Virus record (IMG/VR): IMGVR_UViG_3300028156_000004
Location: 1 to 23,201 of that record
Length of the DNA stretch: 23,201 bases
Origin: a virus
Strand: one strand, 5' to 3'
Below the pieces are notes generated by a model. It was not told where the DNA came from, made no database searches, and saw nothing but the letters and a program-made list of their open reading frames with translations. The position numbers and the translations under genes are program-made. Position 1 is the stretch's first letter, and each line of letters begins with the position of its first letter. Shown in pieces: positions 11,605 to 19,190 of this stretch.

Positions 11605-12129
11605 ATGCCCCAGAGATCAGCAGTAACACAACTCCCGGACGAGGTGAGAGAAGATCTTGACCGGAGGCTCATAAAAAGCGGATTTGCCAATTACCAGGGT
11701 CTGGCGGACTGGCTCATCGAACAGGGGTATGAGATCTCCAAATCCTCCATCCACCGCCACGGCCAGCAGTTGGAGCAGCGACTCCAGGCTATTAAAATAT
11801 CCACAGAGAGCGCTCGGGCGATCGCAAATGCCAGCCCTGACGATGAAGGAGCTATGGGAGACGCCCTCACGCGGTTAATGCAGGACAAAATCTTCAATAT
11901 GTTGCTCGAACTGGAAAAAATCGACGCGGATCAGATCGACGTGACGAAACTTGGTCGCATGATTGCCGACCTGAATCGCTCTTCGGTAACACAGAAAAAA
12001 TGGCAGGCGGAGGCCAGGGGGAAGGCGGCCAGGGCGGCTGACGACGTCGCTGATATCGTGAAATCCACCGGCCTTTCCGATGAGAAAGCAAAAGAAATTC
12101 GCAAAAAGATATTGGGAGTCGCGGCGTAA
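11605..12129 (+). CDS. Mu gp27-like protein (DUF3486), putative terminase small subunit
   Basis: A 174-residue DUF3486 protein. The N-terminus holds the family's LPDEVREDLDRRLIKSGFANY and YEISKSSIHRHGQQLEQRL segments (residues about 10-60), which form an HTH-like DNA-binding unit. The rest is helical with a charged end. In Mu-like phages this gene precedes the large terminase and is taken as the small terminase, recognising the phage end for packaging. The stop TAA overlaps the ATG of the large subunit by one base, a coupled arrangement that keeps the two subunits in proportion. Confidence 0.85.
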   Translation: MPQRSAVTQLPDEVREDLDRRLIKSGFANYQGLADWLIEQGYEISKSSIHRHGQQLEQRLQAIKISTESARAIANASPDDEGAMGDALTRLMQDKIFNMLLELEKIDADQIDVTKLGRMIADLNRSSVTQKKWQAEARGKAARAADDVADIVKSTGLSDEKAKEIRKKILGVAA

Positions 12130-13634
12130 TGGCGCAGAAATCAACTCCACATAATGATCTCGATACCGCCCGTGAGGCAACCGGAGGCATCCTGCTGCCC
12201 TATCAGGCGAGCTGGGTTGCCGATGATTCCGCGGTGAAGGTCATGGAAAAATCCCGACGGGTCGGGATCTCCTGGGCCGAGGCATCCGATGACGCGCTCT
12301 ATGCCGCGTCGGAAAGCGGCGACGATGTCTGGTACATCGGCTACAACAAAGACATGGCCCTGGAATTTATAGGCGATTGCGCCAACTGGGCGCGGGCCTA
12401 CAACCTGGCATGCTCAGAGATGGAAGAGACCGAAGAAATCGTGGAAGAGCAGAAGATCCTCGCCTTCCGGGTCACATTCAGATCCGGCCACCGGGTCACG
12501 GCATTGTCCAGCCGTCCCACCAACCTGAGAGGAAAGGGCGGTCGTGTCATAATCGACGAGGCGGCATTCCATGACGATCTGCCCGGGCTGATAAAAGCGG
12601 CGATGGCCCTGCTCATATGGGGCGGTCAGGTCAGGATCATCTCCACGCATTTCGGAGACAGTAACGAGTTTAATTCACTCATTCAGGATATCCGCGCCGG
12701 GAAAAAACCCTACAGCCTCCATCGCGTCGATTTCGACGAAGCCCTTGACGCCGGCCTGTATAGACGAATCTGCGAGGTCTTGAAACGGGACTGGTCGCCG
12801 CCAAAAGAGTTCGCCTGGCGACAGGAAGTCATTGATTTTTACGGCGACGACGCGGACGAGGAGCTCTTCTGTATTCCGTCCCAGGGGAGCGGCGTCTATC
12901 TGACCCGCGCCCTCATCGAGACATGCCTCTCCGACGAGATCCCCGTGATCCGCTACGAACAATCCACGGCATTCGCGGAAATCGCCGATCACCTGAGACA
13001 CGCCGAAGTCAAGGATTGGTGCGAGGAAACATTAAAACCGCTCCTTGCCGGATTAGATACAAAGCGCAGGCACTATTTTGGTGAGGATTTCGGTCGCACC
13101 GGTGACCTCACGGTTATCACGCCCCTGGCGGAACAGCAGAACGCGACTTTCAGGGCCCCATTCATCCTGGAACTCAGGAATATTCCCTTCCAGCAGCAGG
13201 AACAGATCCTCTTTTACATCGTCGACCGGTTGCCGCGATTTTCATACGGCGCCCTTGATGCCAGGGGAAACGGGCAGTACCTGGCCGAACGCGCCATGCA
13301 GAAATACGGTGCGTCACGAATCGCCCAGGTCATGCTCTCCGAGCAATGGTATCGGGAAAACATGCCCCCGTACAAAGCGGCGTTCGAAGACCGGAGCATC
13401 CTGCTTTCGAAAGATGCCGATATAATCGAAGATCACAGGGCGTTCAAGGTGATCAAGGGAATTGCAAAGCTCCCCGATACAAAAACAAAAGGCAAGGACA
13501 AAAAACAGCGCCACGGAGATTCCGGAATTGCCGGCGCCCTGGCCTGGTTCGCCACGAGGCAGAAAGGCGGCGGGCCGATCGAATACGAAACCGTCAGCGA
13601 GCGCCGGGCATCCGCCGGCAGAGGAGCCTACTGA
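12129..13634 (+). CDS. Mu gp28-like terminase large subunit
   Basis: A 501-residue packaging motor. The ATPase domain has a Walker A-like KSRRVGIS at residues 41-48, Walker B VIIDEAAF at 140-147 and a coupling segment ISTHFGD at 171-177. The C-terminal RNase H-like nuclease shows three acidic sites in order: D320 (GEDFGRTGDLT), D377 (ALDARGNG) and D464 (RHGDSGIAGALAW). It would cut phage-host junction DNA and pump it headful into proheads. Length and motif spacing are normal. The tail of the protein overlaps no neighbour; the portal ATG follows directly after its stop. Confidence 0.93.
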   Translation: MAQKSTPHNDLDTAREATGGILLPYQASWVADDSAVKVMEKSRRVGISWAEASDDALYAASESGDDVWYIGYNKDMALEFIGDCANWARAYNLACSEMEETEEIVEEQKILAFRVTFRSGHRVTALSSRPTNLRGKGGRVIIDEAAFHDDLPGLIKAAMALLIWGGQVRIISTHFGDSNEFNSLIQDIRAGKKPYSLHRVDFDEALDAGLYRRICEVLKRDWSPPKEFAWRQEVIDFYGDDADEELFCIPSQGSGVYLTRALIETCLSDEIPVIRYEQSTAFAEIADHLRHAEVKDWCEETLKPLLAGLDTKRRHYFGEDFGRTGDLTVITPLAEQQNATFRAPFILELRNIPFQQQEQILFYIVDRLPRFSYGALDARGNGQYLAERAMQKYGASRIAQVMLSEQWYRENMPPYKAAFEDRSILLSKDADIIEDHRAFKVIKGIAKLPDTKTKGKDKKQRHGDSGIAGALAWFATRQKGGGPIEYETVSERRASAGRGAY

Positions 13635-13635
13635 A

Positions 13636-15216
13636 ATGATACTGGACCAGTTCGGACGAGAGATTCAGAGGATGGAAAAACAGCCGGAACAGCGTGAAAT
13701 CGCCGTCGCGGCGGTACGTGACCGCTGGAGCACCTACCCCAGCTCAGGGCTTACACCGGCCAAGCTGGCCACGATTTTCAAGGAGGCCGACGGGGGAAGT
13801 GTTTACCGGCAGGCCGAGTTGTTCGAGGAGATGGAGGAAAAGGACACACATCTTTTCGCCGAATTCCAGACCCGTAAAAATGCCGTCCTCGGCCTTGATT
13901 ACGATATCGAACCGTACGACAGCAGTAGCGAAGCTAAAAAAATAGCCGATTTTTGCGCCGACGTCCTGTTCTCCATGTCCACATTTGAAGAAACGCAGCT
14001 TGACCTCCTCGACGCCATCCCGAAGGGATACGCCATGCAGGAAATCGTCTGGGACGTGACGGAGGGCAAGGCGATCATCGCCGGGTTCATGTGGATCCAC
14101 GCGAAAAAGGCAGTCTTTACGGACTTCGGCAAGAGCATGTGGGAGCCGATGATCTCCATCCCGAAGATCATCACCGAGGCCCAACCGATCAACGGCGAAG
14201 ACATGCCGCCCTTCAAACTGGTTTATCACCGCTACAAGGCCCGGTCGGGATACGACACCCGCGCGGGGATCCTGCGCACCTGCTCCTGGATGTACCTGTT
14301 CAAGAACTACGGAATCAAAGACTGGGTAGGCTTCGCCGAGGTGTTCGGCATGCCGCTGCGCCTGGGGAAGTATGACGCCGGTGCGAGCACGGCCGACAAG
14401 GATGCCCTGAAATTAGCCATCCAGTCGCTGGGCTCCGACGCCGCCGGGATCATATCGAAAAACACGGAGATTCAGTTCATCGAGGCGACAAAAAACGCAT
14501 CAAAGGACAACATCTTCGAGAACCTGGCTAACTTCTGCAACAAAGAAATGTCCAAAGCGATTTTAGGTCAGACAGCCACCTCGGAAGGCACGCCCGGCAA
14601 ACTCGGCGCGGATGACGCGCAATCCGCGGTACGCCAGGATCTCATCGAGGCCGACGCGAGCGCGCTGGCGAACACGGTCCGTTTTCAGATCCTTCGCCCC
14701 CTGGTCGGCTATAACTTCGGATGGGACAAGCTGCTTCCCTGGTTCCGGATCAAATACGAAAGCCCGGAGGATCTCAAATATCTTTCCGATGTGTACGAAA
14801 AACTGCACAAAATCAATTATCCTCTCTCGGCGAAGCATGTATCCGAGCGATTCGGCGTTCCCCTGCCCGACCAGAAAGACAAAGACGACTTTGTCCTCCC
14901 GGCGGCAAGTGGGCCGATGTCTGGGGCCAGATTTAAAGCTGTCCCCTATGCCCTTAAAAATCGCCGCTTTACGCCCGAGCAGGAAGCTCTGGAGGGACTG
15001 ATGGCACGGACAGGCGAAGAGATACCTGGGGCCATGTCAGGCCTCTTGGAGCCGATCCGTAAGCTGATCATGACCGCCGGGTCCCTGACCGAGATCCGCG
15101 ACGGGATATACGCGCTCTATTCCGACATGGATCCGCGCGAGATAGAAGATCTCGTATCGCGGGCAACATACACGGCCGACCTGTACGGCCGGCAGACGAT
15201 AGAGGATAAAAAATGA
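13636..15216 (+). CDS. Mu gp29-like portal protein (DUF935)
   Basis: A 526-residue protein of the DUF935 family, the dodecameric portal through which DNA enters and leaves the head. The ATG at 13636 behind GAGGAG is chosen; a longer in-frame ATG lies inside the terminase gene and has no ribosome site. Segments such as LLDAIPKGYAMQEIVWD and CSWMYLFKNYGIKDWVGFAEVFGMPLRLGKY are typical of the family. Near residues 430-437 a type-B REP-like palindrome (14923-14946) is embedded in frame, in the C-terminal part where portals vary. The stop overlaps a short ATG ORF, and the F gene starts 20 bases later. Confidence 0.92.
   Translation: MILDQFGREIQRMEKQPEQREIAVAAVRDRWSTYPSSGLTPAKLATIFKEADGGSVYRQAELFEEMEEKDTHLFAEFQTRKNAVLGLDYDIEPYDSSSEAKKIADFCADVLFSMSTFEETQLDLLDAIPKGYAMQEIVWDVTEGKAIIAGFMWIHAKKAVFTDFGKSMWEPMISIPKIITEAQPINGEDMPPFKLVYHRYKARSGYDTRAGILRTCSWMYLFKNYGIKDWVGFAEVFGMPLRLGKYDAGASTADKDALKLAIQSLGSDAAGIISKNTEIQFIEATKNASKDNIFENLANFCNKEMSKAILGQTATSEGTPGKLGADDAQSAVRQDLIEADASALANTVRFQILRPLVGYNFGWDKLLPWFRIKYESPEDLKYLSDVYEKLHKINYPLSAKHVSERFGVPLPDQKDKDDFVLPAASGPMSGARFKAVPYALKNRRFTPEQEALEGLMARTGEEIPGAMSGLLEPIRKLIMTAGSLTEIRDGIYALYSDMDPREIEDLVSRATYTADLYGRQTIEDKK
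14923..14946. repeat. Degenerate type-B REP-like palindrome inside the portal gene
   Basis: GGGGCCAGATTT followed by AAAGCTGTCCCC matches the perfect palindrome at 18266-18289 at 22 of 24 positions. It is read in frame within the portal C-terminal region. The two substitutions suggest an older insertion that has drifted under coding constraint. Confidence 0.7.
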
Positions 15217-15235: not shown

Positions 15236-15994
15236 ATGCGCTTAGACGGTCCGTACATAGTTCTGGAACCCGTGCCGTTCGACGAGGCGATCGAATATTT
15301 CGGCGCGCGGATCCCGATGACGCCGGAGCGGTTCGCCGCGCTTTCCGAAGGGGCAAAGGCAACGGCGTTCATGATCGGAGGCGTCACCCGCATGGATCTG
15401 GTCGAAGGGATCCACGGCGCTGTCCTGAAAGCTATTGAGGCGGGCGAGACCCTGGCCGATTTTCAAGGGCGAGTTGACGACCTGTTCACCTCCCAGGGGT
15501 TCGCGGCGGCGGAAGAGGGGCTCGGTGCCTGGCGGCTGGAGACGACCTTCCGGACGAATATCCAGACGGCGTACAACGTCGGCCGCTACGAGCAGATGGT
15601 CGACATGACCGAGGCTTTTCCATACTGGGAATATGACGCAGTGAACGACGGAAACACACGGCCCGAACACGCCGCCCTCGATGGGAAGGTGTTCCCGGCT
15701 GATCATCCGTTCTGGGATACCTGGTATCCTATAAATGGTTACAACTGACGATGCGGAGTGAATATGGTCCACAGGTCTGTGGCCGAGGAGGAGGGGTTGA
15801 AAATCGAAACGGACGACCCGACTGGGAAACTGATCGAGCCGATCGACGCCGCGGGAAATAAGCTCCCGGCCCGGCCCCTGATGCCCGATCCCGGATTCGC
15901 GACGAACCCGGCGAAGCAGCCTTGGAAACCGGATCTCGGAAAGTATCCGGACGAATTGTCAAGACAATACGAAAAGGAGGAAAAAGACAGATGA
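15236..15994 (+). CDS. F: MuF-like head morphogenesis protein, predicted selenoprotein (UGA at 171)
   Basis: Two open stretches in one frame form a single MuF-type minor head protein of 252 residues. Residues 1-170 contain LIRTN-like FRTNIQTAYNVGRYEQM, RPEHAALDGKVF and PFWDTWYPINGYN. The next codon is UGA (15746-15748). The frame then runs on as RCGVNMV...DPGFATNPAKQPW, ending 15994. MuF proteins normally continue NGxNCRC, so UGA replaces the first Cys and U171-R-C173 results. Downstream lies an fdhF-like SECIS hairpin. UGA is an ordinary stop elsewhere in this window, which excludes a recoded genetic code. The start ATG 15236 has only a weak ribosome site. Alternatives are a nonsense mutation or partial readthrough giving a 170-residue form. 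Confidence 0.85.
15746..15784 (+). promoter_or_regulatory. Candidate selenocysteine codon with SECIS hairpin
   Basis: UGA is at 15746-15748. After 17 nt, GG at 15766-15767 can pair with CC at 15783-15784, leaving U15768 bulged. CCACA (15769-15773) then pairs with UGUGG (15778-15782) around the loop GGUC (15774-15777). The E. coli fdhF SECIS, bound by SelB, has the same order: GG/CC, bulged U, short stem, A-GGUC-U tip. The tip begins 26 nt after the UGA; as I recall, bacterial SECIS loops lie about 16-37 nt away. The upper stem here has 5 pairs against 4 in fdhF. Confidence 0.82.
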
Positions 15995-17058
15995 AGCTCT
16001 GTGTGCTCGTGAAGGAAATCGACGGCGTGCCGTCCGAGTTCCAACTACTGCCATACGGCGAGATCTCAATCCACACCCGGAAACGCCCCGCGGTGCTGGA
16101 TGAAGCTGCGATGAAGACTGTTATTGCGAAATTTGATGCGCGCGGAAACGACATGGTCATCGACTACGAGCACCAGACGGAGATGGGCACACAGGCGCCG
16201 GCGGCGGGGTGGATCAAGCAACTGGTCAACCGGGGCCGGGATGGGCTGTGGGCGATCGTGGAGTGGACCGACAAGGCGAAGGAATATCTCAAGAACCGGG
16301 AATACCGGTATTTCTCGCCGGTAATGTGGATTCACGAGGTGAGCGACAGGGTGGCGCTGCTTGAGCATGTCGCGCTGACGAACGACCCGGCGATCAATAA
16401 TCTAAAACCGATCATGGCAAAAATGAAGCTGGCGAAGGCCGGTACGCGCCATGACCACAACGAGGAGGAAGTGAATATGGACAAAATCAGAGAGATGTTG
16501 GAGCTGCCGGCGGAAACGCCCGCCGACAAAATCGAGGGGAGGGTCGCGCTGGTGATATCGAAATGCGCTGACCTGGAAACGAAGCTCGCGGACGCCGTAA
16601 CACAGGCAGCGGACGCGGCAAGGGTCGTCGCCTGCAAGGAAGTGATGACGGCGCTCGGGACGAACGAGGGCGCCACTGCCGACGATCTCGTCAAAATCAT
16701 CACCGGCATGAAAGCCCTGGAAACCCCGGCGCAGAAGCTCGCGCTGAAGGTTCAGGAGCTGGAAACAAGAATCGCCTCCAGGGAATCGGACGATATCGTC
16801 CAGGAGGCCCTCAAGTCCGGCCGCACGTCTCCCGCTGAACTCGAAGAATGGGGAAACGACCTGGCAAAAACGTCGCCGGATCAGTTCAGGAAGATCGTAC
16901 TTTCCCGGACGGCCGGAAGCGTGATCCCGCTGGATAAGCTCCGCGTGGCGAAAGGTAAGCCCGAAGGGCTCGCCGATGAGGCACAGAAGGGGATTAATAA
17001 GCAGTTGGGGATCTCCGACGAAACGTACACAAAGTTTGGTCCGAAAAAGGCCGACTAA
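15991..17058 (+). CDS. I: Mu protease I-like maturation protease with C-terminal scaffold
   Basis: A 355-residue head maturation protease fused to a scaffold. The N-terminal 140 residues resemble Mu I: GNDMVIDYEHQT (H61) and YRYFSPVMW (S109) are candidate catalytic positions, followed by VALLEHVALTNDPAINNLKP. The C-terminal 190 residues are helical and charged (ETKLADAVTQAADAARV), as expected for a scaffold that is cleaved away. The ATG at 15991 overlaps the F stop (ATGA); AAAAGGAGG lies 10 bases before it. A second start with its own ribosome site is at 16477. Protease residues are inferred from position and family habit, not proven. Confidence 0.85.
   Translation: MKLCVLVKEIDGVPSEFQLLPYGEISIHTRKRPAVLDEAAMKTVIAKFDARGNDMVIDYEHQTEMGTQAPAAGWIKQLVNRGRDGLWAIVEWTDKAKEYLKNREYRYFSPVMWIHEVSDRVALLEHVALTNDPAINNLKPIMAKMKLAKAGTRHDHNEEEVNMDKIREMLELPAETPADKIEGRVALVISKCADLETKLADAVTQAADAARVVACKEVMTALGTNEGATADDLVKIITGMKALETPAQKLALKVQELETRIASRESDDIVQEALKSGRTSPAELEEWGNDLAKTSPDQFRKIVLSRTAGSVIPLDKLRVAKGKPEGLADEAQKGINKQLGISDETYTKFGPKKAD
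16477..17058 (+). CDS. Internally initiated scaffold protein (nested in I)
   Basis: ATG 16477 is in the same frame as I, preceded by GAGGAGG at 16462-16468 with an 8-nt spacer, giving a 193-residue product that begins MDKIREMLELPAE. In Mu and lambda-type phages the scaffold is made from an internal start of the protease gene (Mu Z, lambda Nu3), so that many scaffold copies accompany few proteases. The product is largely helical and acidic-basic in alternation, with the VQEALKSGRTSPAELEEWG region near the capsid-binding end. The strong internal ribosome site supports its expression; no direct proof is available. Confidence 0.7.
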   Translation: MDKIREMLELPAETPADKIEGRVALVISKCADLETKLADAVTQAADAARVVACKEVMTALGTNEGATADDLVKIITGMKALETPAQKLALKVQELETRIASRESDDIVQEALKSGRTSPAELEEWGNDLAKTSPDQFRKIVLSRTAGSVIPLDKLRVAKGKPEGLADEAQKGINKQLGISDETYTKFGPKKAD

Positions 17059-18308: not shown

Positions 18309-19190
18309 ATGATAATAAATCAGGCAAATCTGGAGGGTATTTACAAATCCTTTTCCACCATATTCAACAAACAGTTTGAGCTGACGCCGTCAGACTATGC
18401 GCTGATCACGATGATCACCCAATCCGGCGGCCGGTCAGTCGACTACAAATGGCTCGGCGATCTGTCCGGCATGCGGGAATGGTTGGGTGACAGGGTCATC
18501 ACGGATCTGTCCGCCTTTCATTATGAGATAACAAATAAGTCGTTTGAACTGACGATCGGCGTGGACAGGGATGACATCGAGGACGACCTCATCGGCGTCT
18601 ATCTCCCCCGGCTCGAGATGCTGGCACACGGGGCAAAGACACACCCCGACGAGCTGATCTTCGCGCTCCTGAAACTGGCCTTCGAGACGGAGTGCTTTGA
18701 CGGGCAATATTTCTGTGACTCGGACCACGTGGTCAACGGCGCGTCCGTCTCAAACACCGGCGGCGGATCGGGGAATCCCTGGTTTTTGATGGACCTATCG
18801 AGGCCCATCAAACCCATGATTCTCCAGCGCAGGAAAAATCCGGAGTTCGTGGCGATGGATAACCCGGCGGACGAGAGCGTGTTTATGCGCAAGGAGTTCC
18901 GTTACGGCGTGGACGACCGCAAGAACGTCGGGTACGGTCTCTGGCAGCTCTGTTTTGGCTCAAAGGACACGCTGGACGCGACGACATACGCGGCGGCGCG
19001 GGCGGCGATGATGGCGTTTACAAAGGACGATGGAGTCACGCCCCTCGGAGTCAGAGGAACACACCTGCTTGTTGGGGGTACAAACGAAGCAGCGGGGAGA
19101 GCGCTCGTAGAGGGCGCGAACCTCACGGGCGGAGCCAGTAACCCCTGGTTTAACACGGCTAAGCTGGTGGTAACCCCCTGGCTGACATAA
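18309..19190 (+). CDS. T: Major capsid protein (Mu gpT-like)
   Basis: A 293-residue major head subunit of the Mu gpT family, HK97-fold. Recognised parts are FSTIFNKQFELTPSDYALI (residues about 15-33), the SGGRSVDYKWLGDLSGMREWLGDR segment and FELTIGVDRDDIEDDLIG. The middle has DGQYFCDSDHVVNGASV and the C-terminus LLVGGTNEAAGRALVEG. Length is typical. AAGGAGGAAAAACC gives a strong ribosome site for a protein needed in hundreds of copies. A large hairpin with 14-bp arms stands just after its stop. Confidence 0.93.
   Translation: MIINQANLEGIYKSFSTIFNKQFELTPSDYALITMITQSGGRSVDYKWLGDLSGMREWLGDRVITDLSAFHYEITNKSFELTIGVDRDDIEDDLIGVYLPRLEMLAHGAKTHPDELIFALLKLAFETECFDGQYFCDSDHVVNGASVSNTGGGSGNPWFLMDLSRPIKPMILQRRKNPEFVAMDNPADESVFMRKEFRYGVDDRKNVGYGLWQLCFGSKDTLDATTYAAARAAMMAFTKDDGVTPLGVRGTHLLVGGTNEAAGRALVEGANLTGGASNPWFNTAKLVVTPWLT

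Follow-up and report, generated by a model that had tools for sequence, protein, structure and literature searches.

A putative SECIS hairpin behind an in-frame UGA codon in the muF head gene of a Mu-like phage

The muF gene and its in-frame UGA

The window, by which we mean the whole stretch of DNA analysed, is an entire viral record of 23.2 kb (positions 1 to 23,201). Its gene order is Mu-like, running through transposase, DNA transposition protein, terminase, portal, MuF, protease and major head protein, with the protease gene overlapping the stop codon of muF (Table 1). Positions 1-600 have a high AT content and show no clear phage gene; they may be host DNA flanking the integrated phage.

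Table 1. Coordinates of the head genes and of the features within muF
Feature	Position	Strand	Support
Large terminase subunit	12129..13634	+	phrog_2, E=4e-31
Portal protein (Portal_Mu), directly 5' of muF; start codon uncertain	13612..15216	+	PF06074, E=2.5e-101
muF read through UGA, 252 aa with putative Sec171 and Cys173	15236..15994	+	PF04233, TIGR01641, purifying selection
In-frame UGA, proposed Sec171, first Cys of NG-x-x-C-x-C	15746..15748	+	Relatives have only TGC, TGT or TGA
Cys173, partner of the proposed Sec171 in the U-R-C motif	15752..15754	+	Invariant in 69 aligned relatives
Putative SECIS hairpin	15766..15784	+	RNAfold; bSECIS model; kept in near relatives, L010 having a compensatory change and L007 one altered loop base
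Mu I-like head maturation protease; start codon uncertain	15991..17058	+	PF10123, E=4.1e-72
Major head protein, Mu gpT-like	18309..19190	+	PF10124, E=6e-108

Termination at the in-frame UGA would leave a MuF fragment of 170 aa. Read-through raises the PF04233 score from 72 to 86.4 bits, and this score, above the gathering value of 29.6, together with the adjoining portal gene, places the product among the MuF minor head proteins. The UGA falls on a Cys that homologues conserve, at residue 171, where NG-x-x-C-x-C, invariant in 69 relatives, has its first Cys; such a Cys/Sec pair is a mark of selenoproteins. Sequencing error is excluded, since the same UGA is common to three contigs of this phage (the window, L001 and L002).

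The UGA might nevertheless be a true stop, either arising by nonsense mutation as a prophage decays or closing a naturally short MuF that a second ORF follows, with any hairpin behind it coincidental. Indeed, a short ORF with a GTG start (15758-15994) lies behind the UGA. However, the frame 3' of the UGA matches MuF without a break and experiences purifying selection equal in strength to that 5' of it (window versus L007: dN 0.10, dS 0.73; dN/dS behind the UGA ~0.14, not above the 5' value), and the head genes adjoining muF are intact.

A hairpin within SECIS distance of the UGA

Sequence and RNAfold agree with the bases and pairing given in the original prediction for the hairpin (window letters GGTCCACAGGTCTGTGGCC): a GG/CC base, an unpaired, bulged U15768, the 5-bp stem CCACA/UGUGG and the loop GGUC at 15774-15777, with an optional extra G-U pair (U15765-G15785) at the hairpin base and a free energy of -8.4 to -9.0 kcal/mol. 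The loop is separated from the UGA by 25 nt and its tip is the 26th nucleotide, again as predicted. The published bacterial SECIS consensus model (bSECISearch; PMC13188914 Fig. 2) sets a loop of 3-9 nt, an upper stem of 4-16 bp, G in the first two loop positions (GG or GU), a UGA-to-loop distance of 16-37 nt, the range also given in the original prediction, and an MFE of at most -7.5 kcal/mol. The hairpin conforms to all four published sequence and structure constraints, having a 4-nt loop on a 5-bp upper stem (8 bp with the basal pairs), a loop that begins with GG, and spacing and energy inside the limits. It also carries the two fdhF-type features, a bulged U below the stem and a GGUC tip.

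The predicted structure was thus returned by folding, but its free energy is ordinary: the 55-nt region does not exceed dinucleotide shuffles in stability (z = 0.32), and fold energy by itself therefore argues nothing. Similarly, the claim that the match is unlikely by chance held for a strict fdhF-type pattern (GGU, a 4-6 bp stem, GGUC, CC), which turned up a single time in the window and, beyond it, only in other copies of this phage (3.73 Mb, both strands counted), but not for the general model, which is permissive and satisfied by 217 of 2000 random TGA sites (~11%). Both the unexceptional folding and this permissiveness speak for a true stop with a coincidental hairpin. The evidence that settles the putative SECIS is comparative rather than energetic, and it is on comparison of sequences that we regard the hairpin as most likely a working bacterial SECIS.

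UGA, cysteine and hairpins among MuF relatives

Searching by protein retrieved 85 relatives, 84 of which span the site; TGA stands there in seven (two being this same phage) and TGC or TGT in the rest. We also ran pattern scans, with stop-codon controls, over 2.9 million viral contigs (IMG/VR). The pattern TAYCCNCCNAAYGGN7-TGA-NNNTGY matched 26 stretches, among them 24 MuF frames that stay open before and after the TGA, whereas TAYCCNCCNAAYGGN7 followed by TAA or TAG gave nine stretches and no MuF. Likewise, AAYGGNTGGNNN-TGA matched 92 stretches, MuF included (19 MuF sites over all loci, 15 distinct), as against 62 stretches without any MuF when TAA took the place of TGA. The distinct UGA-MuF genes number 33 in total (29 once the false match L094 was removed, plus L236, L288, L295 and L300), and UGA homologues, a further mark of a selenoprotein, are thus present in other organisms. 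That UGA, never TAA or TAG, falls at exactly this Cys in 33 distinct genes argues against a true stop, which we now consider highly improbable. This stop-specific pairing of UGA with Cys over many MuF genes is the strongest evidence for the proposed Sec decoding.

The UGA-MuFs are scattered over many clades, and a maximum-likelihood tree of 85 sequences has 11 Cys/UGA changes, at least 9 of which are forced by well-supported branches. As to hosts, L078, L080, L081 and L083, all Cys relatives, come from genomes that encode both selB and tRNA-Sec, so Sec machinery is present in such hosts. Among the results that count against the Sec reading, a search of 395 Desulfobacterota genomes gave no UGA-MuF, and tRNA-Sec and selB, both sought in the 23-kb record, are absent from it. 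Fifty-five genomes from the class to which G001 belongs showed Cys in every MuF motif seen, and the nearest isolated-phage relatives of UGA-MuFs are single unbroken CDSs in GenBank in all six cases inspected. The records of three UGA-MuFs (L087, L100 and L102) bear IMG/VR names suggestive of isolate genomes (IMG ids 2684623112, 2523231026 and 2593339183, respectively) and are candidates for leading to cultured hosts of UGA-MuF phages.

Hairpins at SECIS distance go with UGA and not with Cys. The best such hairpin averages -10.0 kcal/mol in 29 UGA genes versus -4.5 in 56 Cys genes (p=6e-8), and the mean z against synonymous-codon shuffles is -1.30 versus -0.19 (p=2e-6), although both p values ignore kinship. 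In line with the prediction that the hairpin supports Sec decoding, 19 of the 29 UGA genes agree with the bSECIS model, compared with 7 of the 56 Cys genes. Across nine phylogenetically independent pairs the direction holds (5.7 versus 0.4) with a median sign-test p of ~0.06; as a test of hairpin against UGA, this pairing is no more than suggestive.

Within the window's own UGA clade the hairpin is kept, together with the U bulge and a GG-U-Y tip; loss of the hairpin from UGA homologues, which the original prediction had named as the outcome that would speak against it, was looked for and not encountered in the nearest two. The window has CCACA-GGUC-UGUGG, L007 has CCACA-GGUU-UGUGG, and L010 has CCACC-GGUC-GGUGG, a compensatory exchange of an A-U pair for C-G in which both changes are silent (AGG to CGG, Arg; TCT to TCG, Ser). 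In the nearest Cys relatives, of 85% protein identity (L003, L004 and L006), the hairpin is weak or absent; one Cys relative, L008, retains the stem CCACA/UGUGG (L008:3478-3520) with the loop changed to GGAG. The L008 hairpin is likely to be a SECIS decaying after a return to Cys, or a precursor of one. More distant UGA genes have other stems, their tips often being GGUC, GGU, GGC, CGUGA or CGGGM, and the far relatives L093 and L095 have independently UGUCA-GGUC-UGACA. In L063, L064, L104 and L111 two alternative, mutually exclusive hairpins can form 3' of the UGA, GCGGGGUGGUGAGCCAUUCCGC or UUCCGCC-CGUGA-GGUGGAA.

It may be asked whether Sec is inserted by means of some other structure, or independently of a SECIS. 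About one third of the UGA-MuFs fail the strict bSECIS model (e.g. L086 and L211, and, by one nucleotide of spacing, L093 and L095), and L063-type genes have a choice of hairpins, both of which would fit such a reading. In the window clade, however, it is the present hairpin that is conserved, with its synonymous compensatory change, U bulge and GG-U-Y tip, and it matches the E. coli fdhF element, so that we think a different SECIS, or insertion without one, very unlikely here. We give even less credence to UGA being read as an ordinary amino acid without Sec machinery, whether by a UGA-reading tRNA-Cys or as Trp or Gly in a reassigned code. A UGA-reading tRNA-Cys would also place UGA always where Cys belongs, but TGA ends 10 of the 26 gene models in the window, muF among them, and is therefore otherwise a normal stop; a tRNA search of the window found none, and the association of hairpins with UGA would not follow from this reading. 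On stop specificity and stop usage we rejected both the pseudogene and the code-reassignment readings.

Inteins or intein-like inserts start at the Cys that would be Sec in the window in two relatives (L061:3217-4305 and L041:3493-4467), the L061 insert ending in ...VHN followed by CRCGV. Sec decoding would need to be squared with the homing of inteins into that MuF site; both mark this site as the conserved core of MuF.

Proposed selenocysteine decoding and known systems

Taken together, we hold it very probable that the hairpin is a bacterial SECIS in the muF gene of a Mu-like phage and that Sec replaces the invariant Cys171. The sequence-level basis comprises the UGA at a Cys site, the hairpin and its conservation, stop specificity and purifying selection; the proposed decoding of UGA as Sec draws jointly on stop specificity, the pairing with Cys, selection and SECIS-like hairpins, mostly in metagenomic contigs. 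We infer a host with Sec machinery as part of the explanation. In the infected or lysogenic host, a host-encoded SelB-GTP-Sec-tRNASec complex would bind at the bulged U and the GGUC tip as the ribosome pauses on the UGA, and insertion of selenocysteine would yield a MuF of full length with Sec171-Arg-Cys173. Failed recoding would give the short fragment, which has neither the U-R-C motif nor the C-terminus. Recoding of E. coli fdhF in vivo reaches 30-40% (PMC4513850). Each capsid contains only one or two copies of the MuF homologue SPP1 gp7 (PMC5576092), and incomplete recoding may perhaps be tolerable for that reason.

The function of the MuF domain has been described as unknown (PMC5576092). 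The AlphaFold model of the window's MuF has a mean pLDDT of 81; Foldseek returned nothing significant with it (best E 1.2), VIA-align gave no Z above 3.3, and a PDB sequence search found no relative, so the role of the Sec site cannot be read from structure. R142, H145, D156, U171 and C173 form a conserved cluster, for which a metal-binding or redox role is our guess. On a broader scale, it is probable that Mu-like phages repeatedly swap Cys and Sec in a virion protein by way of the host selenium machinery, and that assembly or cargo injection is contingent on the host's selenium state. If this is true, the 21st amino acid has a place in a phage particle protein, UGA-MuF genes are cut short by standard annotation, infection would rely on SelB and selenium of the host, and the NG-x-x-C-x-C site of MuF is pointed to as chemically reactive or metal-binding.

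To the best of our knowledge, known prokaryotic selenoproteins are cellular, and most are thought to work in redox reactions. The most complete inventory, that of 2026 (PMC13188914), lists neither phage nor virion proteins among the prokaryotic selenoproteins, nor PF04233, and phages are not mentioned in four selenoproteome papers (PMC9312934, PMC12013277, PMC2398784 and PMC1794560). No phage selenoprotein was found in the literature, that is, among open-licence papers, which does not prove priority; UGA-MuF would seem to be a virus selenoprotein family absent from current inventories. An Rfam scan of the window gave no match at the gathering threshold.

The closest known counterpart of the hairpin is the E. 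coli fdhF SECIS (GGUUGCAGGUCUGCACC), whose description in the original prediction was borne out: a 56-mer holding GGTTGCAGGTCTGCACC matches annotated fdhF, folds in the same way and is present in 5368 of 5426 E. coli genomes. The two share the GG/CC base, the bulged U in third position, the GGUC cap and an in-frame location just behind the UGA. They differ in that the window hairpin has a stem of 5 bp rather than 4 bp, the stem sequences being unrelated, in that 25 rather than 18 nt separate UGA and loop, and in that the extended lower stem of the fdhF element has no predicted equivalent in the window; moreover, fdhF encodes an oxidoreductase and the window gene a phage head protein. Compared by sequence and structure with the bacterial SECIS consensus (bSECISearch; PMC13188914), the window hairpin shows no difference. 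On the protein side, the window shares with MuF proteins (PF04233, TIGR01641; Mu gpF, SPP1 gp7) the domain, NG-x-x-C-x-C and the gene order terminase, portal, MuF, protease and major head; unlike the relatives examined in named phages, which are unbroken CDSs, it has UGA, putatively Sec, for the first Cys. The UxC selenoproteins (thioredoxin-like Sec.2 and the SO_0444 family transporter; PMC13188914 Table 1) share Sec-x-Cys and the existence of Cys homologues but belong to families unrelated to MuF. The RNA element itself is thus a canonical SECIS; what is new is its place in a viral head gene and its recurrence across a phage family.
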